A stretch of DNA of 64,000 nt from Malus domestica (taxonomy: Eukaryota > Streptophyta > Magnoliopsida > Rosales > Rosaceae): NCBI RefSeq assembly GCF_042453785.1, contig NC_091670.1, forward strand, positions 37,645,501 through 37,709,500. The letters run 5' to 3'. Position numbers and translations under genes: made by a program. The notes under the pieces were generated by a model that was not told the DNA's origin, made no database searches, and saw only the letters and a list, made by a program, of their open reading frames with translations. Of the stretch, positions 27,801-59,271 are shown piece after piece. The first letter of the stretch is position 1; each line of letters begins with the position of its first letter.

Positions 27801-29120
27801 AAAGGCCTTTCCTTGTAGAGAACCTTTTCTAATAAACTTGACACATTCATTATCTCCCATGAAAACATAGCCTTGTTTTATTATCCTGGATGCTGAAAGT
27901 AAATTTCTTCTCATTGCAGGCACAAATAGGACATCATTCAATTGCATTATCATGCCAGTAGATAGTTTCAGTTTAACAATACCAATGGCTTCGACAAACA
28001 CTTTGGTTCCCTCACCAACAAAAACATTAAAACAGTTTGTTTTCTTTTGTTTTTCAAAACCATGTAATGAATTAGTGATGTGCACAGATGACCCAGTATC
28101 AAACCACCAAGAGTTAGCAGGAATATCAATGAAATTCGACTCCTCACACACATAGACATCAGCTTTTCCTTTAGCCCTTAACCAATCCTTGAAAATTTCA
28201 CAGTCCCTCCTATAATGACCTTTAGATTTGCAGTGATGACACCTAATCTTTTCAATGTTTTTAGTCTTGACCTTAAAATTTTTAGATTTAGAGGAGTTGG
28301 AATTTTTAGCAGATATAACAGACTTATCATGTTGCTGAGGTTTAGAAGCATTACCAGGATTTGTGTCCCTCTTTCCCTTTGCAATTTGCACATAATTGAC
28401 AGCTTCAGTCTCTTTGCTCTTTTCTTGCTTTTGACGGTTTTCTTCTTGGACACACTGAGCAATCAACTCATCCACTGTCCAGGTCTTGTCTTGAGTGTTA
28501 TAAGACACCTTTAGTTGACTGAATTTCTGCGGTAATGCTTGTAGAATCATGAACACCAATTGCTTTTCACCAATGTTGACATCCATTGAATTAAGTTTCT
28601 CGGCTGCATCGGTTATCTTCATAATGTGGTCTCGGATTGAACCTCCACCCTCAAATTTGTAAGATGTCAAAAGGAACATGTACTGAGCGATTTCAGCCTT
28701 TTCAGATTCTTTGAATTTGTTCTCCACAGCAGTTAGATAATCCTTTGCTAGTTCACACTTCTTGATTCCTCCTCGCACCGTGTCTGTCATGCCACTTTCA
28801 AGAATGGATAGAGCCACTTTATTAGCCCTGGTCCATCTCTCAAACTCAGCCTTTTCAGTCTTTGTGCTTTTGTCGGTCAAAGCCGTAGGCTTTGGCATGT
28901 CAAGTGCAATATCAAACTCATTTAGTGTCAAAAGCAACTCAATTTCTCTTCTCCACTTCTTGTAATTGCTCCCACCAGTGAGTATTGGTACTGCACCTAA
29001 ACTGATTGACTTTAATGAAACTGCAGAGTACACAAACGAAATCAAAACTTTGAATCGAGAGTGATTCTTGATTTCGGTCTTTCTCACCACAAAATGAGTG
29101 CATTGAATCAACTTAATCAT
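24873..29120 (-). CDS. Copia gag-pol polyprotein, uninterrupted
   Basis: A single 1415-residue frame with all copia domains in order: UBN2-type gag ([16 protein letters not shown]), zinc knuckle [14 protein letters not shown] (C-X2-C-X4-H-X4-C, around residue 293), protease with [17 protein letters not shown]-pre-integrase ([14 protein letters not shown]), integrase ([34 protein letters not shown]), reverse transcriptase ([30 protein letters not shown]) and RNase H ([32 protein letters not shown]), ending [10 protein letters not shown] ... [11 protein letters not shown]. No stop or frameshift interrupts it. It is plausibly still able to encode functional proteins, although its 5' LTR is shortened, which would remove the upstream part of the LTR promoter region. 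Confidence 0.96.
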
Positions 29121-29783
29121 ATATATAGCCTTTCATGTTGAAGACATATATAGAATAAACAATTCAAGCTCACTAAAGTCAATCGCATAAAATCTGCAGA
29201 GCTTCTTTAAGTTTGATGTTGCAGAGTTTGGTTAACACAAAATACAATATGCAATGATAGAACACACACTAATCCGTGAAAATTCAAGGCTTTTGTGTTG
29301 ATTATAGCAGCGGAAGCATTATAACAGCTACAAAATATATTAATCTTGAAAAGAGGAATTGAACCAGCAGATAAACTTAGTTATTCAATCATATTATCTT
29401 AATATGGGCATCAATGTCGAGTAAGGTCAGTTTTACATAGAAAGAAAACATACCTTTTCAAGAGCAATGTCTTACAGTGGCTTATTTTTAGCATTAGACT
29501 TTGAATTGCAACCAGAACCCAAAAAATCAAGATCACAAGGAGAACTTTTCAAATAACAAGCAACAAACTCAAAAAATAAAAATAAAAACCCAAAACATAA
29601 CGGTCAGATTTTTAAAAGAACCTTTTCGAGAGTTATAACGGCTCTTTAATGAAACGGCACCGTTTATGGACAAGTTTTTTTTTTTTTTATTAGGTTTCGA
29701 TCCCAGTTTCTGATCTTTTTCAGCAAACTGAAAGATTTTATGAATCGAATTCAATGATTAGAACCTAGGGCTCTGATACCACA

Positions 29784-33141: not shown

Positions 33142-33936
33142 TCACTTTCCGGGAACAAAGTTTGTGGCATAGTTCCAGGCATTGTTGGCGACTGGGTCCG
33201 CAAGGTGGTCGGCAAGGTTCTCCAATGGTCCCTTACCGGTGACAATGGCCTGCACAAAGAATCCGAACATGGAGAACATGGCCAACCTTCCATTCTTGAG
33301 CTCCTTCACCTTGAGCTCAGCAAAGGCTTCTGGGTCGTCAGCAAGACCCAATGGGTCGAAGCTTCCGCCGGGGTAAAGTGGGTCGGTCACCTCTCCGAGG
33401 GGGCCGCCGGCAATTCTGTATCCCTCAACTGCGCCCATCAACACCACTTGGGTAGCCCAGATGGCCAAGATGCTCTGTGCATGGACCAAGCTAGGGTTTC
33501 CCAAGTAGTCGAGACCGCCCTCGCTGAAGATCTGGGCTCCGGCCTTGAACCACACGGCTTCGCCGAACTTAACACCGTTGCGGGACAAGAGCTCTGGGAA
33601 AACGCATCCAAGAGCTCCGAGCATGGCCCATCTGGAGTGGATCACTTCGAGCTCACGGTTCTTGGCGAAGGTCTCTGGGTCAGCTGAGAGTCCGGCGGTG
33701 TCCCAGCCGTAGTCACCGGGGAACTCGCCGGTGAGGTAGCTTGGGGGCTCACCGGAGAATGGCCCCAAGTACTTGACTCTGTCAGGGCCGTACCATGGGC
33801 TGCCAGAGGAGACTTTTTTGGTAGCAGTTTTCCTCATGGACACTCTTCCGTTTCCAAAAAGCTCGGTGGCTCCCGGGGAAAGTTGCACGGCTTTGCCGGC
33901 GAAGGTTGGGGAAGAGAGAGCCATGGAAGCTGCCAT
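33142..33936 (-). CDS. LHCB1: Chlorophyll a/b-binding protein of LHCII type 1, copy A
   Basis: Intronless 264-residue protein, the usual LHCB1 form. Residues 1 to about 34 are a chloroplast transit peptide rich in Ser/Ala/Thr, followed by RKTATKK, the region of the phosphorylatable N-terminal threonine. The trimerisation motif WYGPDR is at 48-53. Three thylakoid helices are visible: [38 protein letters not shown] and [20 protein letters not shown], with the chlorophyll-ligating E/R pairs. It binds chlorophyll a, b and xanthophylls in the major PSII antenna and takes part in state transitions. It sits head to head with copy B, whose encoded protein differs only by one inserted Thr near the start. 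Upstream on its own strand are CCAAT, GATAAGG and TATTTAAG elements. Confidence 0.97.
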
Positions 33937-35247
33937 TGCAAAACAAATGTGATACTAATAGAATGATAAACCAGTTAAAGGAAGAGAGGATGATAGGTGG
34001 TTGTGATTGGCTTCATGGCTTAAATAGGACAGTGCCCTTATCCTAGAAAATCAATAGCTTTACTCTCATTGGTTGTTGTGACATTCTGAAGTTCGATTTT
34101 TCTTGTCTAGTTGGCAGTGGCACCCTCTACCACCAGTAGTACCAACAGTCGCTAGATTATACAGTTTGTACTGGTGTTTGAAAAATCTCAAGACAATAAT
34201 GCACGGGTACCACTAGTTTGTCCAATCGGACAGTGCCACTTGTCCAATTGGATAGGCTTTCTGTGCTCGGAGATAGTAGAGGATTTCCTCTGTAGGACCA
34301 AACCCTAATTCGACCATGCAACTGTACACCTCCGTATTTCCAAATTCTGGACCTCTCAGAACATTGCTGCATCGCTAGCCATGAATGAATGAAGTCACTT
34401 ATAATTCTAAACAAATTGTATGTTTCTTATTTACAATGCATCAGTTGTCTAGACTTGAGAGATTTTTTAACAAACTCAACAATGCAACAGTTGTCTAGAC
34501 TTGAGAGATTTTTTTTAAGAATGCACTTGAAGATTACTTTGGACCCTACAAAACTGTACAAAATTTTCACAACAAGACGATTTTCTGAACTATTAACTTA
34601 CGAGAATGAGAATGCTATCTTAGTACAAGAATGCCGGTAAGGCACACTGTCTTAACCAACTGACTTAACTTACAAAATAAGTTTTTACTTTGAAATCATG
34701 ATTCCTGTTTAACAAAAGGCAATATAAAAAATAGTAAATACCATTTAGCAATGAATGTAATTTGGATGTTGACAAACTCAATCCATATATGCAGGAGCAC
34801 CCTATTCTTCAACATTTGTGACTATAATCATATAATGCATGTATTAACTCCGTGCAAACTAACATGTATGCTTCTGATCTTATTTTTAGGGAGAGATATT
34901 TTTTGGGTCGGATAAGATTGAAGAGCTCAAGCCAAATTTCTTGCATCCAAATTATAATCCGGTTTTCGTGAAAGTGAGTTTGAGATGTGGACCAAGATCA
35001 TCCAATATTTTCACAAAGATTTTTTCTTCTCCTCCTGCAGAGATATTTTCCTCACACGCCCTCTGCCTACCACTCGATTGTTCTTTTAACTTTTTTCTGA
35101 AGGGTGAAAATTTTACTTCCTAATTACCATATCAACCCTAACATTCGACCGTTGAGAAGGCACTGTCACGACTCCTCTAGGTTGTAACACTCCAACCGAT
35201 AGAATGCACCCAACGTACCCAGCTTGTAGATTTTTTCAAGATTGTTT

Positions 35248-35283
<36 letters not shown>

Positions 35284-35557
35284 CCAATATTCTGGTGGCT
35301 GAGAGTAATCATGGAGAGCCCACATTGGTTATAGGCCAGGGAAATGAATCTGAGGACGTGGTGGATTAGAGAGACTGACACGTAGGCAAACAAAAACAGA
35401 AGAAAAATCTTGGCAGTCCAATGAAATTAAAGCTTTAGATAACATAAGATAAGTGGCTTTGATATCATGCCACTATAAGTACGTACCAAATCGGCCACCA
35501 TCAATCACTACTCTCATACTTGAACTGTCAATCAAACCTCAATCCTTTCTTTCAACT
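33937..35557. promoter_or_regulatory. Divergent intergenic region between two LHCB1 genes
   Basis: Both LHCB1 genes start outward from this 1.6-kb gap. For copy A (minus strand) the order toward the gene is CCAAT (34068-34072), GATAAGGG (34035-34042), then TATTTAAG (about 34018-34026). For copy B (plus strand) it is CCAAT (35418-35422), GATAAG (35448-35453) and TATAAG (35474-35479). CCAAT plus GATA/I-box ahead of TATA is the known light-responsive Lhcb layout. Copy B has ACGT cores further up (GGACGTGG, GACACGTAGG at about 35350-35385). A (GA)n microsatellite is at 35250-35280. A 40-bp direct repeat (CAGTTGTCTAGACTTGAGAG) occurs at about 34443 and 34490. Confidence 0.6.
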
Positions 35558-36355
35558 ATGGCTGCTTCCACAATGGCTCTGTCTTCCCCAACCTTCGCCG
35601 GCAAAGCCGTGCAACTTTCCCCGGGAGCCACCGAGCTTTTCGGAAATGGAAGAGTCTCCATGAGGAAAACTGCTACCAAAAAAGTCTCCTCTGGCAGCCC
35701 ATGGTACGGCCCTGACAGAGTCAAGTACTTGGGCCCATTCTCCGGCGAGCCCCCAAGCTACCTCACCGGCGAGTTCCCCGGTGACTACGGCTGGGACACC
35801 GCCGGACTCTCAGCTGACCCAGAGACCTTCGCCAAGAACCGTGAGCTCGAAGTGATCCACTCCAGATGGGCCATGCTCGGAGCTCTTGGATGCGTTTTCC
35901 CAGAGCTCTTGTCCCGCAACGGTGTCAAGTTCGGCGAAGCCGTGTGGTTCAAGGCCGGAGCCCAGATCTTCAGCGAGGGCGGTCTCGACTACTTGGGAAA
36001 CCCTAGCTTGGTCCATGCACAGAGCATCTTGGCCATCTGGGCTACCCAAGTGGTGTTGATGGGCGCAGTTGAGGGATACAGAATTGCCGGCGGACCCCTC
36101 GGAGAGGTGACCGACCCTCTTTACCCCGGAGGAAGCTTCGACCCGTTGGGCCTTGCCGATGACCCAGAAGCCTTTGCTGAGCTCAAGGTGAAGGAGCTCA
36201 AGAATGGAAGGTTGGCCATGTTCTCCATGTTTGGATTCTTTGTCCAGGCCATCGTCACCGGAAAGGGACCATTGGAGAACCTTGCCGACCACCTTGCCGA
36301 CCCGGTCGCCAACAATGCCTGGAACTATGCCACAAACTTCGTTCCCGGAAAGTGA
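35558..36355 (+). CDS. LHCB1: Chlorophyll a/b-binding protein of LHCII type 1, copy B
   Basis: Intronless, 265 residues from the ATG in CAACTATGGCTGCTTC. The in-frame codons upstream to 35453 are the 5' leader, not coding: the start at 35558 matches copy A and gives a normal transit peptide. All LHCB1 marks are present: WYGPDR at 49-54, the three membrane helices and the C-terminal [11 protein letters not shown]. Role as for copy A: major trimeric PSII antenna in the thylakoid. The coding sequence is highly similar to copy A although silent differences exist (for example around 36075-36150), pointing to a recent inverted duplication or gene conversion. Confidence 0.97.
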
Positions 36356-43300: not shown

Positions 43301-46300
43301 CAGACTTCATCTAACAGCCCCCCGCAAGCTAACAGGGGGTGGTACAACTGGGAGCTTGGAGATAAGGAACTGAAATCTGGACGAAGACAATCCTTTAGTG
43401 AAAATGTCAGCAAGTTGGTCCTGGGAACACACATAATTGACCAACAACTGACCACGAACAACCTTCTCACGAACATAATGATAGTCAACCTCAAGATGCT
43501 TGGTTCTCGAATGAAAAACCGGATTGGACGCAAGGGCAATTGAAGAAACATTGTCACACCAAATGGTTGGTTGAACCAGATGGAGATGGAGATCTTTATA
43601 AAGAGACCTTAACCATGATAACTCTGCTGCAGTATAAGCTAACTGCCTATACTCTGCCTCTGCACTCGACCTCGATACTGTCTTTTGCTTTTTTGAACTC
43701 CAGGATACAAGGTTGGAACCCAAATAAACACAGAAACCACCTGTGGAGTGACGAGTATCGGGGTTGCCAGCATAATCTGCATCAGAATAAGCTGTCAACT
43801 TCGCAGTTCCTGGTTTATACAATAGCCCATGATTATACGTAGCCTTCAGATACCGTAGGATTCTCTTTACAGCCATCCAGTGCGTTGTTTGTGGAGAGTG
43901 CATGAACTGGCACACTTGATTCACAGCATATGATAAATCAGGCCGAGTTATCGTAAGATACTGTAGTGCCCCAACAACACTACGATACATCTCTGGATTG
44001 GCAAAAGGATCTCCAGCATAGGCACTCAACTTCTGACCAGACGGCACTGGAGTGGAAATGGGCTTTGCGTCTGTGAATTTAGTTCGAGTCAGTAGGTCCA
44101 GAGCATATTTGGACTGACAGAGATGCATGAAATCACCAGTATACTTGACCTCAATACCCAGGAAATAACTTAGTGGTCCCAAATCCTTCATTGAAAACAA
44201 ACTACCAAGTTTCTTAATCAAATGATCCATCTGGCGAGAACTATTCCCTGTGAGGAGAATGTCATCAACATAGATTAAAAGAATGAGATATACACCCCGT
44301 TGATTATACACAAACAAACTGTAATCACATGTGGACTCCTCAAAGCCCAGTTGAAGCAAGAAATCTGAGAAGCGTTGGAACCAAGCCCTAGGTGCTTGTT
44401 TTAAACCATAAATAGAACGTTGTAGCTTACAAACATGATGTGGAAACTGTTTGTCAATGAACCCTGATGGTTGCCGCATGTAAACATGTTCATTTAAGTA
44501 GCCATGCAAGAACGCATTTGATACATCCAGTTGGCGTACAGGCCACTTCTTGGACACAGCAAGACTTAAGACAAAACGAATGGTGCTGTGTTTAACCACC
44601 GGACTGAAAGTCTCAGTGTAATCCACGCCAGCCTTCTGATGAAAACCATTAGCCACTAACCGAGCTTTATGACGCTCAACAGTACCATCGGCTTTGCGCT
44701 TAATTTTGAACACCCATTTGTTTGGCAGTACGTTCATGTCAGATTGTTGTGGAACTAAACTCCACGTGCCACACCTTTGTAATGCATTAAATTCTTGCAC
44801 CATAGCGTCCCTCCACTCATGATGCTTGACTGCCTGACTGAAGCAAGTTGGTTCAACAGGAATATCTTTAATGGTAACATGCATAGCATACTTTGGATTG
44901 GGTTTGACAACTCCAGACTTGGAACGTGTAGTCATAGAGTGGCCAGTATCACTAGACACATTAGCTGGCAAAGATTGTGAATTGACTAACACTTGCTCAT
45001 GTGATTGTAGTGGGGGTCCTAAGGAATGGTTAGATGGTAATGGTATTGGGGTTGGACATGTTAGATCAGGAGAGGAAGAAATATGTGGCGTGATGGAAGT
45101 ATCAAGAGAGGACTGGGCACTATGGGTATTGGTTGTAGAAGAACACACGGGAACAGTTGTGGTTAAGGGAAAAGTAAATAATAATGGGGGTAAAAAAATT
45201 GTTACCTTGTGATGCAACGCTTTCAGGAGGAGATGTGAGTCCCTTAAAAGGGAAAAAATCCTCATCGAATAGGACATGGCGAGACAAGTAAACTCGTCTT
45301 GTGGACAGATCCAAACATTTGTATCCTTGATGATCAAGAGAATACCCAAGAAAGACACATGACTTGGATTTTTGTTGTAATTTATTTTGATTATATGGTG
45401 TTAACCAAGGAAAACAACGACAACCAAAAACTTTTAACATGGCATAATTTGGTTTTCTTTGAAACAATTTCTCAAAAGGAGATATGTTTGATATTACACG
45501 AGTTGGCAGACGGTTTATCAAGTATGTAGCAGTTAAGCATGCATCAAACCAAAACTTATTAGGCATATGAGATTGAGAAAGCATAACAATACTGGTTTCG
45601 ACAATGTGTCGCTGTTTCCGTTCTGCCAATCCATTTTGTTCAGGATGTTTTGGACAAGAAAAACGTTGAGAAATTCCATGAACGCCAAGAAAATTTTGAA
45701 AGGCATGACTTTTATATTCACCACCTTCATCACATTGAAGGGTTTTAATTGAACAATTAAACATCTTTTCAACCTTAACTTTAAACTTTACAAATATGTC
45801 AAAAACTTCAGATTTTTGTTTCATGGGAAAGATCCAAGAATATCGGGAATAATCATCCACAAACAACAGGTAATAACGAAAACCTTCATTAGAAATAATT
45901 GGAGAACACCACACATCAGAATGTAAAAGTTGCAAAGGAAATTGAGAGACAGATTCAGACTTACTGAAAGGTAACCTAGTACTCTTTCCTAAAGGACATG
46001 ACTCACAAAAGATGACATTAGATGTACCATGAATTGGTACAAATTTATTTGAAATTAAAAACTTGATTATTGGTTTGGCAGGGTGACCAAGACGAGCATG
46101 CCACTTTTGAACAGACACCCTAACTCCCACAAACGCAGAAACTGGATACTTGAGTGGACCACTGCCATTTGGAAATGGGTATAACCCATTCTCACATCTC
46201 CCTCGGAAAAGCGTCTTCCGTGTCTTGAGGTCCTTAACAAGGAAAAAATGTGGAAAGATTAGTAAATAACAGTCATTGTCTAAGGTGAACCTATGGGCGG

Positions 46301-48004
46301 AGATAATATTGGTAGAGGCAGTAGGGCAATGAAGGATATCTTGTAAAGCAAATGAGCAAGCAGTAGTATTAAGTTGAGTGGAACCACAATGGGCAATAGA
46401 AATTCCAGAAGTATTACCTATACCTCCCACACCATCTTTACCAATATAGTCTTTAGGATTTACCAAATTCTGAAAGTCTGGAGTAATATGTGCGTTGGCA
46501 CCTGTGTCTAGGAGCCAAGTTCCATTTTGCTGCTTGTTGATGGGGATGGTGGAGGACGTCATTGCCGAGAGACGTTGGGCAGGGATTCGGCCTTCAAAAG
46601 CAGTATTCATGCGGTGATAGCAGTCAAGAGCGGGATGTCCAGGTTTGCCGCAGATTTGGCAAACAATGCGATCACCATATGAAGCAGATCTTTCAATATT
46701 ACCTGAAGGATTGCGCTGATAATTATTATTGCGTGGGTTGTAGCTTCTTTGAGCACCACGAGTGGATGGAGAGGTGCCTCGTCCATTTCCACGAGAGCGG
46801 CCTCCACCACGGCCTCTAGACGCAATGAAGGCATTGACAGTAGCACCTTCCACCAAAGGGACAGTTTGGTCCGCCATTCTTCTTTCGGTTGTGAGCAGGA
46901 GTGCTTCAAGAGTGGGATATGTGATAGGATTATCACGAGCTTGTGCAGCACTTACTGTCATCTCAAAGGCCGGTCCAAGATTGTTCAACACAATCTGCAC
47001 GAGCTCATCATCACTCACAGGATGCCCAGCTAGGGCAAGGTTATCAGCTATCGCATTCATGCGATCCAGGTAATCCGCCACAAATAGATCACCTTTCTTG
47101 GTCTGCAACAACTCATTTCTCAAAAACAAAATTCTATTTTGAGAAGTAGAGGCATACCTTTGCTCAAGAGCTTCCCAGGTTGCTCGAGCAGTTCGTTTGC
47201 TTGCCACCACAGACAAGACAGAGGCAGTTAGAGAACCATTTATCCAACTGAGGATCATTTGATCCTGTTGTACCCAGGCAGTGTACGCTGGGTTCAGAGT
47301 GGTTGCACCAGTCACATTCTTTGGAGGACACACCAGCGTGCCATCAACATATCCCATCAAGTCCCTACTTTTTAGGATAGGGAGTATTTGAGCCAACCAC
47401 AGTGGGTAGTTGGTTCTATCAAGTTTGATATTAACAACAGTAGAAAACGGATGAAAAGAGTTGTTTGGGAGGGTGGATGAACTAGCGGGAACATTGTTTT
47501 CAGCCATGGAAGCGAGGATGGGAAGGATAGGAAACTAGGATCGTTGTCGTTAGACAAAAAAGGCTCTAGAAACCATATTAAACTGGATTGAATATTTTTC
47601 CTTACTCTTCTGCTGCAATAGCAGCAGATATTTATATACATCATATTACACACGCATGCAATAAAGAACTATATTAGAAGAGGCATCTTTGCTGTCAACA
47701 AAGCTGCAGTCCATGTGAAGACCCTTGCTGTCCACGATGCACTGTGAGTGGAGCATCTCCGACAGAAGAGAATGGCTCCCATTAGAATAAGCCATTAGAA
47801 TAATCTTCTCATATCCTTTTCAATTCAACAGACTTCATCTAACAGAAGGTACCTGAGATTACGGTGCCGGGGCTTGCAGGAAGAAGCAGGAGAGCAGTGA
47901 AACGAAAAGCGAGCGTTTGAATATGAGCGGTGGCGGGAGGTGGAGTTGGAGCCGGTACTGCTGAGCCCCTGGGTGACGAACCAGGTCGTTACTCTGACCG
48001 CCAT
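37345..48004 (-). CDS. SS4: Starch synthase IV, chloroplastic
   Basis: Sixteen coding exons on the minus strand: 48004-47853, 42916-42685, 42594-42546, 42213-41115, 41001-40950, 40718-40596, 40522-40447, 40354-40170, 40090-39896, 39801-39730, 39067-38858, 38720-38595, 38175-38026, 37939-37878, 37780-37705, 37521-37345; 1011 residues, close to the family's ~1040. Exon 1 is a Ser/Arg-rich transit peptide ([16 protein letters not shown]). Residues ~145-510 are long coiled coils, the SSIV-specific part used for granule initiation and partner binding. The GT5 domain has the ADP-glucose motif KVGGL (528-532), [24 protein letters not shown] and KTGGL (921-925). It elongates glucan primers and starts starch granules. 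Introns 5 and 12 have GC donors. Intron 1 (4.9 kb) contains a whole copia element. No coding damage seen. Confidence 0.94.
43048..43316 (-). repeat. 3' LTR of the SS4-intron copia element
   Basis: Plus-strand ends TATTAAACTGGATTG and CTTCATCTAACA. Confidence 0.93.
43307..45200 (-). pseudogene. Copia pol C-part (RT and RNase H), out of frame with gag
   Basis: This frame, open from 45358, carries RT ([49 protein letters not shown]) and RNase H ([38 protein letters not shown]), ending at 43307 by the polypurine tract. It is separated from the gag-protease-integrase frame by one frameshift near a run of seven T residues around 45196-45202. Everything else looks intact, so the frameshift is either a single mutation or an assembly/sequencing error. 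Confidence 0.85.
45120..47507 (-). pseudogene. Copia gag-protease-integrase frame
   Basis: From ATG at 47507: gag ([17 protein letters not shown]), zinc knuckle [14 protein letters not shown], protease [17 protein letters not shown]-pre-integrase ([13 protein letters not shown]), integrase ([31 protein letters not shown]). The frame stops at 45120, but homology switches to the adjacent frame near 45200, so the last 25 or so residues are not natural. The element cannot make a full polyprotein as read. Confidence 0.86.
47576..47844 (-). repeat. 5' LTR of the SS4-intron copia element
   Basis: Identical by eye to 43048-43316; followed on the minus strand by the primer-binding site. Confidence 0.93.
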
Positions 48005-48769: not shown

Positions 48770-48774
48770 ATGAG

Positions 48775-49886
48775 TGTAGACATCGAAATTTCGGTAAATA
48801 AATGTTGACCGATAAATGAAAGTGTCAACACTCATGTATTACATAAATTTTACACGTAGCGTGTGACTCAACGAAAATTGAAATGAGTTGGAAAAGTCAT
48901 CAAATAAGACACGTGTCAACACCTGGCAGAAACGACTTATTTCATCTGGGATATTATATTCAAAATTAGGCATTGGAAAATTCTATAAATACAAGCCTAT
49001 TTCATTCATTTTGGGGGGGGACCAATTTCATATTACACCTTGAAGCTCTGAAGCTCTGAAACTCCGAAGCTCTCAAGCATCCAGGTTCCCGAAGAATCGA
49101 GAAAGCTCTCTTCGTTCTTCGTTCATCGTTCTTCCAAGATCAAGCCCAAACGGCCCTTTGGATCAACAATCATCCACCAATTCAAGATCAAGCCCCGACG
49201 GCCCTTGAAGAAAGTGTTCTTCGTTCTTCGTTCATCGTTCTTCCAAGATCAAGCCCAAACGGCCCTTTGGATCAACGATCATCCACCAATTCAAGATCAA
49301 GCCCCGACGGCCCTTGAAGAAAGTGTTCTTCGTTCTTCGTTCATCGTTCTTTCAAGATCAAGCCCCGACGGCCCTTGAAGAAAGCCCCATCGTTCATCAT
49401 CCGTTCATCCAAGATCAAGCCCCAACGGCCCCTTTGGATTAACAACGTCGACAAATCCACACATCCAACCGTTCTTCAAGATCAAGCCCAAAAGCCCTTG
49501 AAGATCCGTCCATCACTGTTCTTCAAGATCAAGCCCAAACGCCCTTGAAGATCTGCTCATTACCGTTATTCAAGATCAAGCCTCAAACGGCCCTTGAAGA
49601 AACATTCATCCTCAAGATCAAGCCCCAACGGCTCCTTGAAGATCCGCTCAAATCCACCTCCAAAGATCAAGCCCACGACCCTTTGAAGAAACTTCCAACA
49701 GTTCATCCAAGATCAAGCCTTGACGGCCCTTGGATCAACGAAATATCCACCAATCAACACCTTACGGAGATCGAATCAGAGGATCAAAATAGAGAGAGAT
49801 TGTAACCCAAAATCATCAAAAATACAAATATTTGTTTGTGCGCGTTGTTCTTGTCTCTTTCGTTTCAGGAATTTTCCGTGTTCACA
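48775..49886 (+). repeat. 5' LTR of the chimeric gypsy element
   Basis: Starts TGTAGACATCGAAATTTCGG, ends TTTTCCGTGTTCACA. A TATA-like TCTATAAATACAAGCC lies at about 48981-48997. Confidence 0.93.
49130..49745 (+). repeat. Hairpin-forming repeat array inside the LTR
   Basis: About a dozen units share CAAGATCAAGCC followed, after a few variable bases, by CGGCCCTTGAAGA. Each unit pairs with itself (TTCAAG with CTTGAA, GCC with GGC). Spacers such as GTTCTTCGTTCTTCGTTCAT alternate with the units at the 5' side. The array is present in both LTRs, and similar units recur at 57545-58075. Confidence 0.85.
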
Positions 49887-49906
49887 AATTGGCACGCCCG
49901 GTGGGA
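49887..49906 (+). other. Primer-binding site of the gypsy element
   Basis: AATTGGCACGCCCGGTGGGA immediately follows the 5' LTR. The matching tRNA was not determined. Confidence 0.6.
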
Positions 49907-49965
49907 TAATCTCTGCCTCTCATCTCTTTCTCCGTTCAAGAAATTCAAGCGCACTTCCAAAATTA

Positions 49966-51882
49966 ATGGCATCAAGGAAGGCTCAAACTGTTCCCGCAAC
50001 CGGCGCAAAGAACAAAAGCGTCCTCGTCGCAACTGGTGTCACTTTGGGCATCACGACTCGAAGCATGGCAAGAGCTACTTCTGCCGCCTCTTTCACCTCT
50101 GCATCAACTCTGCCAAGGGAACAAAAGCACCCAAGGCACGAGCCTTTGATCACCTTAGCCTCACTAAGGGCACCAAGGGGGGAAAACCCAAGGAAATACT
50201 CCGAATCCATGCTCTCCGAAGCCGATTCAAGCGACAGTTCAGCCATGCAAGTCATGACCATTGGAGCAACCTCAATCGATGAGCAGCTGGCTCAAATGAA
50301 TGAAGCAATCGCAAGGCTAACCCGAACTGTGGAAGAAAAAGACTTGCAAATCGCTGCACTCGTCAGCCGACTGGAGCCACAGGACGACGAGAACCCTAAC
50401 CCAGAAGATGAGCCTCAGGTGGAGAAAAACGATGCGAAGCCGGAGCCAGACCAAGCAGCGGCACTCATGGGATCTCTTTCTATCCAGCAGCTGCAAGAGA
50501 TGATCACCAACACCATCAAGGCACAGTACGAAGGGAGCTCAAATACCTCCGGGTTGTACTCAAAGCCGTATTCAAAGAAGATCGACGCCTTAAGGATGCC
50601 GAGGGGTTATCAACCACCAAAGTTCATGCAATTTGATGGAAAGGGAAACCCGAAACAGCACGTTGCCCACTTCGTTGAAACTTGCAACAACGCGGGGACG
50701 GAGGGAGACTACCTCGCCAAGCAGTTTGTGCGCTCGCTGAAAGGAAACGCCTTTGAGTGGTACACAGACCTAGAACCTGAGACCATCAACAGCTGGGAGC
50801 AATTAGAGCGGGAATTCCTCAACCGCTTCTATAGCACCCGCCGCACTGTGAGCATGCTAGAGCTAACAAGCACAAAGCAGTGGAAGGACGAGCCAGTCAT
50901 TGACTACATCAACAGATGGCGCACTCTAAGCCTCGACTGTAAAGACAGGCTCTCGGAAACCTCTTCAATCGAGATGTGCATCCAAGGCATGCAATGGGGT
51001 TTGCAATACATCCTTCAAGGCATTAAACCACGGACCTTCGAGGAATTGGCCACTCGCGCCCATGACATGGAGTTGAGCATCGCCCATCATGGGAAGAAAG
51101 AATCGATCGCCGACTACAAGAACGACAAAGTTCTTGGGACAAAGGTGGAAAAGGCTGCATGGAAACCCACCAAGGAAGCGATGACGGTCAACACATCTCC
51201 CGTCAAAATATCCACACGAGGCAAGACGATTCAAACCGAAGCTTTTCGTGATCAAGAGACACGTAGACGCACTTTGAAGGAGCTTGAGGAGAAGACTTAT
51301 CCATTCCCCGACTCTGATGTGGTTGCCATGCTAGATGACCTGTTGGACAAGAAGGTGATCAGTTTGCCTGAGTGCAGACGGCCGGAAGAGATGAATCGTA
51401 CTGACAGTCCAAGATACTGTAAATTCCACCGCTTCATCAGTCATCCGACAGAAAAGTGCTTCGTGCTGAAAGATCTCATCATGAAGCTGGCTCAGAAAGG
51501 AATCATCGAGCTAGATCTTGACGATGTGGTGAAGTCAAACTATACCACCTTCACTTCTGGCTCTTCCGACTCAAAATTTTCACCTCAACCGCTGGGGGCA
51601 TCGTCCAAGACAAGCAAAGTTGAAGGATGGACTCAAGTCACTCCTAAGAAATTGCACAAGAAGCATACGTCTCCTCCACAAGTCCGCCAATCGGAAAGGG
51701 GGCAAAGCAGCTCTTGTCAACCTTCAAAGCAACGTGAACGTGTTGAAGATGATGAAATTTCGACACATAGATCGTCCGTCCCCATCACGATGCGCGACTT
51801 CTTGCCCGAAGACTTCTTCAATCACGCGGTCAAAGCTCATTGCTATGAAAATTGTGGGGAACGCCTCTCCCGGATTGTTTGA
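49966..51882 (+). CDS. Gypsy-type Gag protein
   Basis: The ATG at 49966 follows the primer-binding site and gives 638 residues; the frame is open upstream into the LTR (to 49720), but that part is LTR sequence. A central Retrotrans_gag domain (about residues 215-330) contains FMQFDGKGNPKQHVAHFVET, LKGNAFEWYTDLEPETINSW and EFLNRFYSTRRTVSML. A predicted coiled segment (DEQLAQMNEAIARLTRTVEE) precedes it. Around residue 485 there is CKFHRFISHPTEKCFVLK, a Cys/His cluster in place of a standard zinc knuckle. The frame ends where autonomous relatives would run on into protease; pol does not follow. Gag forms the particle that packages element RNA, so this non-autonomous element may still supply its own coat. 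Confidence 0.88.
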   Translation: MASRKAQTVPATGAKNKSVLVATGVTLGITTRSMARATSAASFTSASTLPREQKHPRHEPLITLASLRAPRGENPRKYSESMLSEADSSDSSAMQVMTIGATSIDEQLAQMNEAIARLTRTVEEKDLQIAALVSRLEPQDDENPNPEDEPQVEKNDAKPEPDQAAALMGSLSIQQLQEMITNTIKAQYEGSSNTSGLYSKPYSKKIDALRMPRGYQPPKFMQFDGKGNPKQHVAHFVETCNNAGTEGDYLAKQFVRSLKGNAFEWYTDLEPETINSWEQLEREFLNRFYSTRRTVSMLELTSTKQWKDEPVIDYINRWRTLSLDCKDRLSETSSIEMCIQGMQWGLQYILQGIKPRTFEELATRAHDMELSIAHHGKKESIADYKNDKVLGTKVEKAAWKPTKEAMTVNTSPVKISTRGKTIQTEAFRDQETRRRTLKELEEKTYPFPDSDVVAMLDDLLDKKVISLPECRRPEEMNRTDSPRYCKFHRFISHPTEKCFVLKDLIMKLAQKGIIELDLDDVVKSNYTTFTSGSSDSKFSPQPLGASSKTSKVEGWTQVTPKKLHKKHTSPPQVRQSERGQSSSCQPSKQRERVEDDEISTHRSSVPITMRDFLPEDFFNHAVKAHCYENCGERLSRIV

Positions 51883-51884
51883 CA

Positions 51885-52170
51885 AAATTCACAAATTCTC
51901 CTCGCCCGCACGAGTCTAAACTGTATGGCACAAAGCTCCTGGTCTGCACGAGCATAAAAGGCAACATCAAGGCTCCTCGCCTGCACGAGCCTAAACTGCA
52001 TGGCACAACGCTCCTGGTCTGCACGAGCATAAAAGGCAACACCAACGCTCCTTGCCTGCACTAGCTGAAACTGCAACACGGCACCAAATGCTCCTTGTCT
52101 GCACGAGTTGAAACTGCAAATGACACCAACACTCTTTGCCTGCATGAGTTAAAATTGCAAACGGCACAAA
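51885..52170 (+). repeat. Tandem repeats of about 37 bp downstream of gag
   Basis: About seven drifting units of GCTCCTGGTCTGCACGAGC followed by ATAAAAGGCAACACCAAC or by CTAAACTGCATGGCACAA. They start just after the gag stop and show no coding constraint. Confidence 0.8.
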
Positions 52171-52360
52171 AAAAAGAAAAAAAAATATGTATGTTTTGAA
52201 CTACGTTTTGACTTGATCTCTTTCTTTGGAAGGGTACGTAGGCAGCTTGAATATTCAATTTCAAGTTCAGTCACATCAAAATATAAATAAATGTTTTATT
52301 AGAAAAAAAGATGAATACATATGTTTATGTATAAAAAAAAAAAATGTTATTAATGTATTA

Positions 52361-52368
<8 letters not shown>

Positions 52369-52425
<57 letters not shown>
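52369..52425. repeat. (TA)n microsatellite
   Basis: An uninterrupted TATATA run between a poly(A)-rich stretch and the captured gene segment. Confidence 0.95.
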
Positions 52426-52428
<3 letters not shown>

Positions 52429-52813
52429 TAGTGGGCTAGATTGTTAGGAATGAAGCCAAAACCGTGAGCCCAATGAGCACTCAACGGCTTGAAGCCTAAA
52501 ACCTTGAGTTCCTCCTCAAACAGAAGGAGCCCATCTTCAACCACTCCCTCGTCATCAACATCTAGGCCCATCTTCACTTGACTCCAAACTAATGAGCTTG
52601 CTGTGCAAGGAGCTTCTCAAAACCCAAAATCCACTTGGACCAAGCTCTCCAAACCTAGCAAGAAGCCCAAATCCAGGCCTTCCTTCCACTTCAAGCTCGG
52701 GTCCAGTTCATCATCATCATCATCTCCCATCGACTCGTTCCGGCGGTACAGCCGCGACTCAGTTAACCACAAGAACCAGTTCAACAGCTACGCAGGTGGT
52801 GCCAAAGAAGGCG

Positions 52814-53128
52814 ATGGCAAGCAGTGGCAGTGGCCAAGCATCGCCTTACAGGCCCTACCGCCACCTCAAGACCCTCCGCGGGCACGAAGACCCCGTCGCC
52901 TGCGTCAAATACTCCAACGACGGCACCCTTTTGGCCTCGGCGTCCCTCGACAAGACCGTAATCCTCTGGTCCGCCTCCACGCTATCCGGGCTCACTCGAT
53001 GCCTCTGACCGCCGTGAGCTTCAATCGCGACGGTTCGATTGTCGTCTCCGCCAGCCACGACGGGTCCTGTAAGATTTGGGACACCGAGTCGGGGACTCTG
53101 CTGAAGACGCTGATTGACGATAAACCAG
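52814..53128 (+). pseudogene. Captured WDR5-like WD40 fragment with internal deletion
   Basis: From ATG at 52814 the frame reads [20 protein letters not shown], then [20 protein letters not shown], the first WD repeat of plant WDR5 (COMPASS H3K4 methyltransferase subunit). It then jumps, with a frame change at GCTATCCGGGCTCACTCG, to [20 protein letters not shown] and [20 protein letters not shown], a later WD repeat, skipping about 100 residues. It ends at LIDDKPA, where SHMT-like sequence begins. It has no introns. It lies on the same strand as gag. No functional beta-propeller can form from it. The 52600-52813 stretch upstream ([20 protein letters not shown] in one frame) may be another captured piece, unidentified. 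Confidence 0.85.
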
Positions 53129-54213
53129 CCTCCTTCGGTTGCGGACCCGGAGGTCCATGAAATTATGGAGAAGAAAAAAACATCGGCAGTTCAAAGGTAT
53201 TGAATTGGTTGCTTCTGAGAATTTTGTGTGCAGAGCTGTGATGGAAGCTCTTGGCGGCCACTTGACGAACAAGTACTCCGAGGGTATGCCCGGAGCGAGA
53301 TACTACACAGGCAATCAGCATATTGATCAGATTGAATTGCTATGTCATGAACGCGCATTGGTAGCTTTTGGTCTTGATCCTGAGAAATGGGGTGTCAATG
53401 TCCAGCCTTATTCTTGTACCTCTGCGAATATCGCAGTCTACACCGGTCTTTTGCTCCCAAATGATAGGATTATGGGCTTGGATTCGCCTTCGGGAGGGCA
53501 TATGAGTCATGGGTATTATACTTCAGGTGGGAAGAAGGTAACGACTGCCTCGATATTCTTTGATAGTTTCCCTTACAAGGTAAATCCGCAAACAGGGTCC
53601 ATTGATTTTGATAAGCTTGAGGAGAGGGCGGTTGATTATCGTCCCAAGATACTTATTTGCGGTGGTAGCTCATACCCCAGGGAGTGGGATTATGCCAGGT
53701 TTAGGCATATTGCAGATAAATGCGGAGCTGTGTTGATGTGTGACATGGCTCATATTAGCGGTCTTGTGGCAGCCAAGGAATGTGCAAGCCCGTTTTGATT
53801 ATTGTGATATTGTTACGTCAACAACGCACAAAAGTCTCCGGGGTCCTAGAGGAGGTATTATTTTCTACAGAAAAGGCACAAAATTAAGGAAGCAAGGTGT
53901 ACATCCTACTGATGAGGGTAGTAACAATTATGATTTAGAGGAAAAGATAAACTTTGCCGTTTTTTCCCATCCCTACAAGGAGGTCCTCACAACAATTATA
54001 TTGCTGCTCTTGCCATCGCCTTAAAACAAGTAGCTACTCCAGAGTATAAAGCATACATGAACCAGGTGAAGAGAAATGCACAGGCCTTGGCTAATGCTTT
54101 GTTGAGAAGAAAATGCAGATTGGTGGCTGGGGGTACCAATAATCACTTGCTGCTTTGGGATCTGACTGGTCTTGGTATAACAGAGGAATGCCAGAAAATA
54201 TGTTGCCGATTAT
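53129..54213 (+). pseudogene. Captured serine hydroxymethyltransferase cDNA fragment
   Basis: The sequence follows plant SHMT (SHM6/SHM7-like) without introns: [92 protein letters not shown], then the PLP-lysine motif [12 protein letters not shown] and [20 protein letters not shown]. It starts about 100 residues inside the normal protein and lacks the C-terminal part. A small indel near 53175, one extra T near 53796 and two extra bases near 53963 break the frame. Loss of introns shows capture through spliced RNA. It is joined directly, and out of frame, to the WDR5 piece. It is not expected to be an active enzyme. Confidence 0.93.
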
Positions 54214-55470
54214 CAGAAGTAATCCATGGCTCCCACGCACTCATACCCACCTGGACCTGCAAGCTGAGAACCAGCAATAGCAGTGATGGATGCACACGCC
54301 GCAACCACCACTCTCAACCGTCGTCTCCGTCAGAACCACCGTCAAAGACCCTGACAACCACAAGAAGGTCTCCCACCTCACAGCACTACAAGAGTTGAGC
54401 CTCCCGCATCTCCTCCTTGCCGTTGAAGTAGACCAAGTCGCCATCTCCGCCGCTTAAGCCGTTCATAGTGATCAGCCTGCTGTCAACTCCTCCTCCCCGA
54501 CCGCATCGGCAACATCAGCACGGGCAGTGCACTTCTGGACTCAAAGCTCAGCAACAGCGGCGGCACCGGCAGCTTCGAGGTCGAGTCTCGGAAGCTCCCT
54601 TCCTCCAAGTACAAAAGCGTGGTCCCGTAGCCAAACGGACGCCAGGGCCCACAACGTTGCTGCACAACGCTTCCGTCGCCACAACGCCGGCATCAACTTC
54701 GAGTCTTCATCTACTGAACCCAGCTCCCGGTCTTAGCACTTCGCCTCGCCAAGTCCACCTTCATCACTGCAGGATCGTTCCCAAGCAGAAGTTGGTCCCC
54801 GCAAGGTTCGAGGTAAGGATGTACTTGGGAATGCCGTGGTGGCTGCTCTAAACCACTATACATCAAACAAAAAAAAAAAAAAAAACTTGTGAATGCATGG
54901 GGCAACCCAATCTCAAACGCCATCGAGCGGGACTCCTTCTCCGTCATCTCCTGCTACTTCCAAAGCTGCACCGTTCCTCTTTGCCCATCTTCCACCGCAG
55001 CTGCCAACGACTTCAACGACCGCCGTCAAACGACTAGCCGGTCGTGAAGCTCGAAGCACCATCTTCTCCGTCCTCCTTGCTCCGCTGCCTGCAAATTTCT
55101 TTACCCATCATCAACATTTATACAAAAAAAGATATATTAAAAAAAATAGGATGGTGCAGCAAAGCAAAGTGGTGCATCTGGCACCACGTGAAAAAAAAGA
55201 GGAATGGTGGATCAAAGATGGGGTACAGCCCCATGGCAGATCAAAAGTTTCTGGTGGTGCATGGGCACCATGTGCGGAAAGAAAAAAAAAAATTGTAAAA
55301 AAAAAATTAAAAAAAAAAAAAAAAAAAAAAACAAATGCATAGAGAGAAATAAAAGGTCCATTTTATTTATTTTTCTGGAAATTTTACATAAATTTGCATT
55401 ATACATAAAAAAAAAATAAATAAATAAAAAAAATCAAATCAAATCAAATCAAATTTACAAGAGGGGATAT
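54214..55470. other. Unidentified GC-rich insert and poly(A)-rich DNA in the element
   Basis: 54240-54850 has coding-like composition and may be further captured host sequence (one frame reads STGSALLDSKLSNSGGTGSF), but I do not recognise it and it contains stops. From 54860 to 55440 the DNA is broken by A-rich runs (54870-54886, 55270-55330, 55405-55450), as would be left by poly(A) tails or slippage. Confidence 0.5.
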
Positions 55471-56082
55471 TCAAGGACGATCAGGTGGCGCCTCACAACT
55501 CGGCAGAGCTCCAGGAAGAGAAGGCGTCGGAGGTTGGCTATTTGAAGCCTCAGCAGTCGGTACAGCCCCAGAAGACGAAGGTAAATGCTGCTGGAACAAA
55601 CCCACAAACCTCCGATGATCAAGTAAAATCTGACCATCAGATTCCTGCATCTGGTCAATTTTCCTCTTCATGTTTGTGGCATAGTTGTGTGCAAGCTTGT
55701 GCAACTGTTTATTCTCCTGCTTGAGCCCTCTAATCTCCTGTTTGAGACTCATCACTTCAGCCGCCAATGATTCAACTTGACGGGTTCGAGCAAATAGGCG
55801 TTGGGCCATATTAGACACAGAACCTGCACACTGCACACTGAGAGCCAGAGAATCCTTAACAGCCAACTCATCAGACCGTTTGGAAAGTAGTCTGTTATCT
55901 CTGGGAGTGACAAGGTTCCGGGCCACCACCGCAGCGGTCATATCATTTTTCATCACCGAATCCCCAACGGTAAGAGGACCAGTAGGGGATATGAAGGATG
56001 GGCGCCATATGTTGTCTGGAGAAGGCGGGACTGCCTCTTCACCAAGATTCAAGTCAAAACGACGGTCGGAGGGTCCAGACAT
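55471..56082 (-). CDS. Antisense ORF of the gypsy element (coiled-coil protein)
   Basis: An uninterrupted 203-residue frame on the strand opposite to gag, from ATG at 56082 (MSGPSDRRFDLNLGEEAVPP). The middle is a likely coiled coil (TRQVESLAAEVMSLKQEIRG, LKQENKQLHKLAHNYATNMK) and the end is Pro/Ser-rich. The open frame also runs to a TTG at 56121. Extra antisense ORFs between pol and the 3' LTR are known from Tat-lineage gypsy elements of plants; function unknown. Being open while neighbouring DNA is degenerate suggests recent selection or recent origin. I have a memory of similar Rosaceae proteins but cannot verify it here. Confidence 0.65.
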   Translation of the reverse strand: MSGPSDRRFDLNLGEEAVPPSPDNIWRPSFISPTGPLTVGDSVMKNDMTAAVVARNLVTPRDNRLLSKRSDELAVKDSLALSVQCAGSVSNMAQRLFARTRQVESLAAEVMSLKQEIRGLKQENKQLHKLAHNYATNMKRKIDQMQESDGQILLDHRRFVGLFQQHLPSSSGAVPTAEASNSQPPTPSLPGALPSCEAPPDRP

Positions 56083-56299
56083 TTTCAAAGTGTTAAAGGA
56101 AGAAGAGATCGGACAAATCAAGATCTTAGAAGTACAAGAGGGGAGTTTTCACAAGCGAAGTGTGCTTTGAAACGAACTGCGTGCCTCTATAAAATCAACA
56201 CTCGACGGCATTTCAGAGATCGAAGAGGTGAGCTCAGAGTTCGAAAATGCCGATTCAAAAATCGAAGAGGCAAGCTCAGAAATCAGAGAAGCATCTTGC

Positions 56300-56590
56300 T
56301 TTTCCAGACGCGTTAGCACCCGTCACATGCAAACTCAGCTTTGCGGAAATCACGGGCAATTTGTTAAAGCGCCAATCCCAGATATCGAAGAGGCGCCAGT
56401 CTTTTTCAGCCTCGTCAGCACCCGTCACGCGCAAACTCAGCTTTGCGGAAATCACGGGTAATTTGTCGAAGCGCCGATCCCAGATATCGAAGAGGCGCCA
56501 GTCTTTTTCAGCCGCGTCATCACCTGTCATATGCACACTCAACTTTGCGCAAATCACGGGCAATTTGTCGAAGATTTTCGGTGAAGGAGA
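56300..56590 (+). repeat. 102-bp tandem repeat, nearly three units
   Basis: Units beginning near 56315, 56417 and 56519 share CTCAGCTTTGCGGAAATCAC, GGGCAATTTGTCGAAGCGCC and CCCAGATATCGAAGAGGCGC. The period is a multiple of three and the strand is open in two frames, but no protein family is recognisable. Confidence 0.85.
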
Positions 56591-57132
56591 AAGCACGTGA
56601 AGTTTACTGTTCAATCACGCGTTAGTTGCCGACACGAGTGAAAGAATAATACCTCTACAGGTATTAAGAGACCTCCTATAACTGTCCACCTTCACCTTCC
56701 ATAGCAAGGCAGACATACAGAGCCTTTCTTCATCTCCAAAAATGCTTTCCCAACGAAACCTCTCGAGTCATTCAGTGTTCCTTATTCCTTGGGGTACCTC
56801 TGCAAGCCAATGACTCCAAAGCAAAAGTATCTCATATCACCAGGGTAGAAGGCAAGAGTATCTCATATCATGTGTTCTCCCTGTCCTTTCCTTTGTCCTT
56901 GTTCTTACCTACAAAGACAAGGATAAAGAAAACAATATGCCGGAACTTCCACTCAAACTCGGGTAAGGAATCGACCGCTTGGAACCCTTCCCTGATTGCC
57001 TACCTAGCACTGCTCTCGAGTACTCGCCTTCCACTGCTGCTGTACTTTCAAAGAAGCTGCCACATCTGCTTGGAGGACAGATAAGGCAAGTGAAAATGAT
57101 ACCTTGCAGCATGTGGAGACAAGGTGCAGAAG

Positions 57133-57320
57133 GAACAAGCAGAGAAGAATGCGGTCTGCACGATCAACTCAGCAGAAGGAGTCCGAACTGAGGAACTCGA
57201 GAAGCTGCCACATCTGCCTAAAGAAACAAGCAGAGAAGAATGCAGCATGCACAGTTAACTCAGCAGAAAGAGTCTGAGATGAAGAACTCGAGAAGATGCC
57301 GCATCTGCCTGAGGACGGTG
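57133..57320 (+). repeat. 91-bp tandem duplication
   Basis: Two units share ACAAGCAGAGAAGAATGC, CAACTCAGCAGAA and GAACTCGAGAAG, 91 bp apart. Confidence 0.75.
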
Positions 57321-57544
57321 AACTCGTTTTGACCCTCAAATTCTTGGGTCGACTTACTAGGCGTTGTAGGCTGCACGTGTCGATTCACCACCCTTGAATC
57401 AAATCCTTAAAGATCAAGTCACCAACTGGAAGAAAAGCCCATCAATCTTGAAGATCATACCGTTGACCAAACTGCTCAGGTGAATTAGAAAGATTGAACA
57501 AAGAAACAGGTTGTCACCTTTACCTCGTGCCTGCTTGCCATGTG

Positions 57545-58075
57545 TTCGAGTCAACCTTCAAGAATCAAGCCTCAACGGCCCTTGAAGAAGCTTCCAGCCA
57601 AATTCAAAATCAAGCATCGACGACCTTTGAGGAAATTACAAGTCCGATTCAAGATTAAGTGTCTACCACCCTTGAATCAAAACCTAGTTCAAGAATAAGT
57701 GTCTACCACCCTTGAATCAAAACCTAGTTCAAGAATAAGCTGTGGAAAATCAACAATTGGAGGAATCCAGAAAATCCTTCAACACAGTTCAAGATCAAAG
57801 CTGTGGAAAGTCAACAAGCGCAACAAAATACGTGCCGATTCACCCACTACCAAAGCCAAAGATCATCTACCACATGAAGTTCCTTGTGGTTCAATTTCAA
57901 CCTTCAAGATCAAGCCTCGACGGCCCTCGAAGAAATTTCAAACAAAAAATTCAAGAACAAGCCTCAACAGCCCTTGAAGAAATCTCAAGCCCAATTCAAG
58001 ATCAAGCCTCAAACGGCCCTTGAAGAAATCTCCAGCCCAATCCAAGATCAAGCCTCGAATGGCCCTTGGATCGAC
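57545..58075 (+). repeat. Hairpin repeat units before the 3' LTR
   Basis: Five to six copies of the LTR-type unit (CAAGATCAAGCCTC ... CGGCCCTTGAAGAA) lie in the internal region, plus two direct copies of AGAATAAGTGTCTACCACCC at about 57680-57730. They suggest that part of an LTR-like array was duplicated inward. Confidence 0.75.
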
Positions 58076-58155
58076 ATCTACAGTAAGGGACTTCAAAACG
58101 CATCTCCTACACGTGACAATCACATGTATACGACACGCTTTGAAGTGGGGGCATT

Positions 58156-59266
58156 TGTAGACATCGAAATTTCGGTAAATAAATGTTGACCGATAAATGA
58201 AAGTGTCAACGCTCATGTATTACATAAATTTTACACGTAGCGTGTGACTCAACGAAAATTGAAATGAGTTGGAAAAGTCATCAAATAAGACACGTGTCAA
58301 CACCTGGCAGAAACGACTTATTTCATCTGGGATATTATATTCAAAATTAGGCATTGGAAAATTCTATAAATACAAGCCTATTTCATTCATTTTGGGGGGG
58401 GGACCAATTTCATATTACACCTTGAAGCTCTGAAGCTCTGAAACTCCGAAGCTCTCAAGCATCCAGGTTCCCGAAGAATCGAGAAAGCTCTCTTCGTTCT
58501 TCGTTCATCGTTCTTCCAAGATCAAGCCCAAACGGCCCTTTGGATCAACAATCATCCACCAATTCAAGATCAAGCCCCGACGGCCCTTGAAGAAAGTGTT
58601 CTTCGTTCTTCGTTCATCGTTCTTCCAAGATCAAGCCCAAACGGCCCTTTGGATCAACGATCATCCACCAATTCAAGATCAAGCCCCGACGGCCCTTGAA
58701 GAAAGTGTTCTTCGTTCTTCGTTCATCGTTCTTTCAAGATCAAGCCCCGACGGCCCTTGAAGAAAGCCCCATCGTTCATCATCCGTTCATCCAAGATCAA
58801 GCCCCAACGGCCCCTTTGGATTAACAACGTCGACAAATCCACACATCCAACCGTTCTTCAAGATCAAGCCCAAAAGCCCTTGAAGATCCGTCCATCACTG
58901 TTCTTCAAGATCAAGCCCAAACGCCCTTGAAGATCTGCTCATTACCGTTATTCAAGATCAAGCCTCAAACGGCCCTTGAAGAAACATTCATCCTCAAGAT
59001 CAAGCCCCAACGGCTCCTTGAAGATCCGCTCAAATCCACCTCCAAAGATCAAGCCCACGACCCTTTGAAGAAACTTCCAACAGTTCATCCAAGATCAAGC
59101 CTTGACGGCCCTTGGATCAACGAAATATCCACCAATCAACACCTTACGGAGATCGAATCAGAGGATCAAAATAGAGAGAGATTGTAACCCAAAATCATCA
59201 AATCCAAATATTTGTTTGTGCGCGTTGTTCTTGTCTCTTTCGTTTCAGGAATTTTCCGTGTTCACA
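58156..59266 (+). repeat. 3' LTR of the chimeric gypsy element
   Basis: Nearly identical to 48775-49886; preceded by the polypurine tract GTGGGGGCATT and followed by the ATGAG target duplication. Confidence 0.93.
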
Positions 59267-59271
59267 ATGAG

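Follow-up and report, generated by a model that had tools for sequence, protein, structure and literature searches.

Host gene fragments in a common slot of a probable Retand-type LTR retrotransposon family of apple

What is known of gene capture by LTR elements comes mostly from individual cases and from surveys. Bs1 of maize is described as an LTR element in which three host genes are represented by fragments (PMC13317346). A maize survey gives 425 LTR elements with gene fragments, which derive from at least 189 captures, and reports no element that combines fragments of two or more standard nuclear genes (PMC2774510). For rice and sorghum, 672 and 1343 captured genes are given, respectively (PMC3726574). 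Within the LTR elements, the Tat lineage is defined by two RNase H domains, of which the second is located between RNase H and integrase in Ogre and Retand (PMC6317226). Retand is marked by antisense open reading frames (ORFs) before the 3' LTR, with Transposase_28 in the antisense ORF of 97% of Retand clusters (PMC11963269).

This work describes an apple element at positions 48775-59266 of the window, i.e. the whole 64,000-nt stretch that was analysed (G000:C10:37645501-37709500 of a 651-Mb Malus domestica assembly with 19 contigs). This C10 copy is compared with its sisters, 11 further two-LTR elements fetched via an LTR search of the genome in which 40 of 2523 first-look candidates were scored; counts among sisters are lower bounds. 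The closest mode of action is that of Bs1, likewise an LTR element in which gag is retained beside several truncated pieces of host genes (PMC13317346), but at the scale of a family and with several genes per element. Whereas Bs1 has one captured set, at least seven further sisters hold different host fragments in one slot here, pol-bearing members exist and cargo has been exchanged between LTR subfamilies. As in the capturing elements of maize, rice and sorghum, host fragments lie inside intact LTR elements and are amplified together (PMC2774510, PMC3726574). Unlike in the maize survey, single elements join at least two genes, both in the C10 copy and in the sisters at C15, C11:29.60 Mb and C11:36.64 Mb. 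BARE-2 and Veju are described as chimeric elements that arose by switching between packaged RNAs, but with element-to-element or unknown sequence, while host mRNA would be involved here as well (PMC13317346). Pack-MULEs and Helitrons also occur as many copies with different multi-gene chimeras; they are described as capturing at the DNA level, in contrast to the LTRs, 5-bp duplications and spliced donor found here (PMC13317346). A literature search, mostly of titles and abstract openings, returned no LTR family that as a whole has varied multi-gene cargo in a single slot, although one may be in print.

Structure and placement of the element

The C10 copy contains an open gag, sequence derived from WDR5b and SHMT, and an antisense ORF. 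Its features are:

48770..48774, no strand: target-site duplication ATGAG, 5' side (flank comparison)
48775..49886, + strand: 5' LTR, 1112 bp, TG...CA ends (LTR comparison; relatives genome-wide)
49889..49906, + strand: putative primer-binding site (same motif past the 5' LTR in sisters)
49966..51882, + strand: gag, open, 638 aa, ATG at 49966 (Retrotrans_gag 8e-14)
51896..52346, + strand: short tandem-repeat region common to sisters; 5' border of the cargo slot
52796..53136, + strand: cargo 1, WDR5b fragment from a C3 gene (188/192 and 161/164 identical)
53123..54183, + strand: cargo 2, SHMT fragment (SHM6/7-type) from a C4 gene (646/656 and 399/408 identical)
54339..54870, + strand: cargo 3, segment recurring in 8 other fetched loci
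54988..55400, + strand: A-rich segment common to sisters; 3' border of the cargo slot
55471..56148, - strand: antisense ORF of the element family, 225 codons from stop to stop
56201..58141, + strand: 3' non-coding region with tandem repeats, common to sisters
58142..58155, + strand: purine-rich tract ahead of the 3' LTR (PPT)
58156..59266, + strand: 3' LTR, 1111 bp (LTR comparison)
59267..59271, no strand: target-site duplication ATGAG, 3' side (flank comparison)

The initial annotation had described a young element with two near-identical 1.1-kb LTRs, a 5-bp duplication, a primer-binding site and gag, and this description holds. ATGAG is present on both sides, and the LTR pair shows 2 substitutions in 1110 compared positions and 2 indel events. 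At a rate of 1.3e-8 substitutions per site and year, this divergence would date the insertion to about 70,000 years ago. The tRNA search of the window for a primer match found no tRNA in the window, and the repeat scan of the window for inverted repeats returned one AT-rich pair. Neither the ORF list nor Pfam revealed a pol domain or pol-sized ORF between gag and the 3' LTR of the C10 copy. Bs1 is not known to have a pol of its own either. The gag had 623 matches; among the best 120 listed, one cluster represents 552 member sequences, and Malus domestica is the source of most of the top relatives that carry a name (best 120 of 623). Some gag frames, namely those of the relatives P0015 and P0037 and of L011:1130-3955, are lengthened by an insert ahead of the C-terminus.

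The TG..CA ends, near-identical LTR pair and target-site duplication are those of an LTR retrotransposon. Placement in Ty3/gypsy is based on Retrotrans_gag in the C10 copy and on the RT-RNaseH-INT order in pol-bearing relatives, as the C10 copy has no pol; at C11:31.03 Mb this order is found with pol all in one frame. Both pol-bearing sisters have the Tat feature of RVT_3 (the second RNase H, aRH) after RT_RNaseH, and in the pol at C11:31.03 Mb the aRH (1317-1436) lies between RH (1162-1265) and INT (1534-1702). Retand features are the aRH between RNase H and INT, a position common to Ogre, and the antisense ORF before the 3' LTR. Transposase_28 (PF04195) was not found by Pfam in the antisense ORF, which gave only weak coiled-coil matches, and the wording Retand-type is therefore used rather than Retand. 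The C10 copy is best read as gag-only and as belonging to a Retand-type Ty3/gypsy family of the Tat lineage that has been active recently. The long 3' region with tandem repeats and the presence of non-autonomous members likewise agree with Retand, as do the extra RNase H and antisense ORF; the differences are the lack of Transposase_28 and the host-gene cargo, which the Retand descriptions, as far as accessible, do not name (PMC11963269, PMC6317226). Compared to TR-GAG elements (LTRs and gag, no other coding domain), the C10 copy has gag plus cargo plus antisense ORF. HODOR (KX869746), described as a high-copy apple LTR element of 9,716 bp, resembles the C10 copy, by description only, as an apple/pear LTR element of similar size (PMC6901071, PMC13334179, PMC8558331).

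Cargo of the C10 copy and its donors

Donors were mapped for this one cargo, with the WDR5b piece traced to the C3 gene at 34.87 Mb and the SHMT piece to the C4 gene at 21.48 Mb, both at 98% identity. Two unrelated host genes are thus joined in a young element that kept its gag, as originally proposed. Read-through from a single neighbouring gene at the 3' side was considered and ruled out, since the donors sit on C3 and C4. The WDR5-like sequence falls in two frames, and 274 nt of the C3 gene are skipped, with the 8-nt repeat GCCTCCAC at both borders of the skip. At the transition from WDR5b to SHMT, 14 nt (53123-53136) align to both donors. The SHMT piece has Pfam matches of 9.5e-92 and 5.1e-24. 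A duplicate SHMT gene on C12 is more distant (93-94%), so the C4 gene is the donor or nearest to the donor. The 827-nt GT..AG intron of the C4 gene is missing from the cargo and its flanking exons are joined exactly. Host exons joined without their intron inside an LTR element, as in a Bs1-like transduction, are thus present for one intron of one gene, SHMT.

The SHMT piece stops at 54183, which is an exact donor exon end, and continues into sequence other than the donor intron. Such a stop is not expected from simple template switching and counts against our best explanation; an alternatively spliced or fused transcript was perhaps the source. Small frame disruptions in the host pieces sit at homopolymer runs. 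Both pieces are frame-disrupted fragments that would hardly code for working proteins.

Cargo 3 occurs in 8 other fetched loci, each with different upstream cargo. We take it to resemble pieces of anthocyanidin reductase and pectin methylesterase. The Pectinesterase Pfam match in 54735-54851 is weak (E 0.036), and the pectin methylesterase reading of this stretch found no PDB match.

The slot in sister elements and the movement of cargo

All 11 sisters have a gag (80-94% identical) and the antisense ORF, whose main matching piece is 91-96% identical; the 3' region of the C10 copy is also common to sisters. The initial annotation had correctly recognized the antisense ORF but placed it in the captured block, whereas it is a family feature, and its reading as a captured host gene is ruled out by its presence in 11/11 sisters. 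The WDR5b-SHMT cargo was found in none of the 11. Their slot, which extends from gag or pol to the antisense ORF, holds sequence other than the cargo of the C10 copy. In nine sisters gag is directly followed by the repeat region, without pol. The other two, at C10:4.53 Mb and C11:31.03 Mb, have pol, which at C10:4.53 Mb comprises RT, RNase H, second RNase H and integrase, with cargo downstream. A pol-bearing partner with similar LTRs, for which a search had been suggested, is thus found at C10:4.53 Mb (LTR 94% like that of the C10 copy). With a Pfam threshold of E 1e-3 or better, host domains in sense of the element were detected in 7/11 sister slots; loci reached via cargo 3 have further Pfam matches:

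C1: malic enzyme 1.6e-92, sense
C15:52.31 Mb: DUF1218 2.8e-27 and CDC20 6.5e-23, sense
C10:4.53 Mb: HMG-CoA reductase 3.7e-43, sense
C11:29.60 Mb: WDR5 4.1e-63, GST_C 3.7e-10 and EF1G (eEF1B-gamma) 1.1e-33, sense
C13 and C6: HVA22 1.8e-25, sense
C11:36.64 Mb: FPP 9.5e-18 and aldolase 4.9e-12, sense
Loci reached via cargo 3: EF1_GNE 2e-23 (L040), RmlD 4.1e-7 (L045), POX 1.1e-4 (L051) and Epimerase 3.3e-4 (L038)

The slots at C14, C2 and C11:33.73 Mb gave no host Pfam match at E 1e-3. In the relative at C11:31.03 Mb, which is 19 kb long, the stretch from pol to the antisense ORF contains PMD (Plant mobile domain) and PPR sequence in antisense, perhaps a nested element. As an orientation control, ORFs of at least 100 aa on both strands were compared for 10 slots, leaving out C11:31.03 Mb with its two antisense matches. 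Pfam matches were found for at least 11 of 49 sense ORFs (two of the 11 being the HVA22 cargo common to C13 and C6) versus 1 of 31 antisense ORFs. This lone antisense match is UBA_4 (6.7e-4; L032:945-1337, - strand), and the rest of the cargo in that slot is sense. Within the scope of the sequence comparison, four points are established: slot contents vary at one position, fragments are of host origin, one intron was lost and one jump occurred at an 8-nt repeat.

C15:4.80 Mb (L029, L030), with tandem LTR pieces and no gag, was left out of the counts. Two tandem pairs of LTR pieces with equal spacing lie about 13 kb apart there, gag is unmatched, and the arrangement looks like a local duplication.

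The genome search with the block scored 40 of 101 candidates. The whole 2440-bp block is present again at C17:29.43 Mb, 99.3% identical with 16 substitutions. This copy has its own duplication, ATAAT versus ATGAG on C10, and 7 differences in 834 between its two LTRs. Compared with the C10 copy, identity is only 76.8% for the LTR (over 793 columns), 90-94% for gag and 96% for the antisense ORF; near-identity extends from about 52.1 to 54.95 kb of the window. That the C17 copy has a separate target duplication and an LTR with just 77% identity indicates that the cargo moved after capture. A copy with a different duplication, of the kind that the initial annotation had asked for, thereby exists, and the single-copy case that it named as contrary does not apply. 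Its suggestion that fragments of WDR5 and SHMT are spread by a mobile family is correct for this cargo; the family overall spreads many different host fragments.

Matching target duplications were found at both ends in 13/16 elements examined. At C14 the expected place showed no match, no start of the 5' LTR was located for C6, and the fetched stretch of C11:31.03 Mb does not reach the 3' end. LTR differences within elements range from 0 in 1024 (C13) to 45 in 1104 (C11:33.73 Mb). Elements at C16:17.76 Mb (duplication AAAAC), C10:34.50 Mb (GTTAT) and C10:2.07 Mb (AAACT) share one eEF1B-type cargo. The compared LTR parts are identical within each of these elements (329, 508 and 743 bp) but only 87-95% alike between them, and the cargo at C16:17.76 and C10:34.50 Mb is 99.6% identical over 2.36 kb. 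Between C13 and C6, identity is 98-99.6% from gag up to a position within the cargo, past which it falls to 95% or less (antisense ORF 95%, 3' region 82-91%, LTR 84-86%). Because U3 of both LTRs derives from the RNA 3' end, one minus-strand switch between two RNAs would suffice for this pattern. Judged by these identities and flanks, repeated insertion of one cargo with different duplications, mosaic copies and cargo identity far above LTR identity are demonstrated.

Origin of the cargo

We consider it probable that spliced host mRNAs enter this Retand-type Tat family through template switching and that the cargo is reassorted between LTR subfamilies. Weighing against this reading are the demonstration of intron loss for a single intron of one gene, the three sister slots with no host match at E 1e-3, and the antisense matches at C11:31.03 Mb and L032. 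In family copies, cargo sits in a slot bordered by gag (or pol) on one side and by the antisense ORF on the other, and pol-bearing relatives would supply virus-like particles, presumably through complementation and packaging. Within these, reverse transcriptase may jump at short homologies from element RNA to a co-packaged spliced host mRNA and back, the timing of the switch being conjectural, so that truncated pieces of several host genes, intronless and in sense orientation, would remain in the slot. Cargo-bearing copies would then retrotranspose further, and switching between two packaged element RNAs could swap cargo, whole or cut, between LTR subfamilies.

Intronless, truncated, microhomology-joined pieces would likewise be expected if host cDNA had served as repair filler at a break in an integrated copy, outside the particle, with later amplification of that copy. 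We regard this as unlikely: it offers no reason for one slot in many copies or for the sense-strand preference, and the single switch point inside the cargo of C13 and C6 resembles copy choice between two element RNAs. Multi-gene chimeras are described as typical of Pack-MULEs and Helitrons (PMC13317346), and Pack-type DNA transposons could have brought host fragments into the LTR element and moved with it. The antisense PMD and PPR coding sequence in the long copy at C11:31.03 Mb would suit this origin. It is nonetheless decidedly unlikely, as the exact loss of the SHMT donor intron is not expected from copying of genomic DNA and almost every recognisable fragment in the 10 slots is sense to the element; given this one lost intron and the sense bias, DNA transposons fit less well than template switching.

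The initial annotation had read the C10 copy as an element that swapped pol for host gene fragments, i.e. one chimeric lineage, in line with its gag, its lack of pol and the host sequence where pol might lie. This reading is very improbable, and the order of events that it implies is already contradicted. Nine of the 11 sisters lack pol yet have other cargo, and the cargo at C10:4.53 Mb lies past pol, from which it follows that pol loss and capture are separate events; with pol in 2/11 sisters, at least one of which also has cargo, the cargo did not replace pol. An assembly artefact or chimeric contig has a negligible probability. Frame disruptions at homopolymer runs may be sequencing errors, but the whole block is found at the second locus on C17, and annotations of other Malus domestica assemblies include a WD40-SHMT gene model of 344 aa (P0121, with 12 member sequences). 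About 5% of residues differ between P0121 and the C10 copy, and no other chimera cluster occurs among the best 120 of 7504 matches. It is a warning for annotators that such chimeras stand as apple genes.

Returning to template switching, a young family with varied multi-gene cargo, known donors and cargo exchange would be a natural record of this process. Host mRNA entry into plant particles, switch sites, the rate of new gene chimeras and whether cargo feeds small RNAs back on donor genes are now testable. The broader proposal, which we hold to be evenly balanced, is that the standing capture slot may act as an RNA-level exon-shuffling machine, with recurrent uptake of spliced mRNAs, fusion of several per element, copy-choice reassortment between LTR subfamilies and dispersal as new chimeric transcription units under LTR and antisense-ORF promoters.

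Other features were observed in the window. An open frame of 1419 codons at 24873-29132 (- strand) looks by eye like a copia-type polyprotein, as do two overlapping long frames at 43307-47534 (- strand), which form another one. Near-identical ORFs at 33142-33954 (- strand) and 35453-36355 (+ strand) lie in opposite orientation and constitute an inverted duplication; we presume that they resemble light-harvesting chlorophyll a/b proteins.
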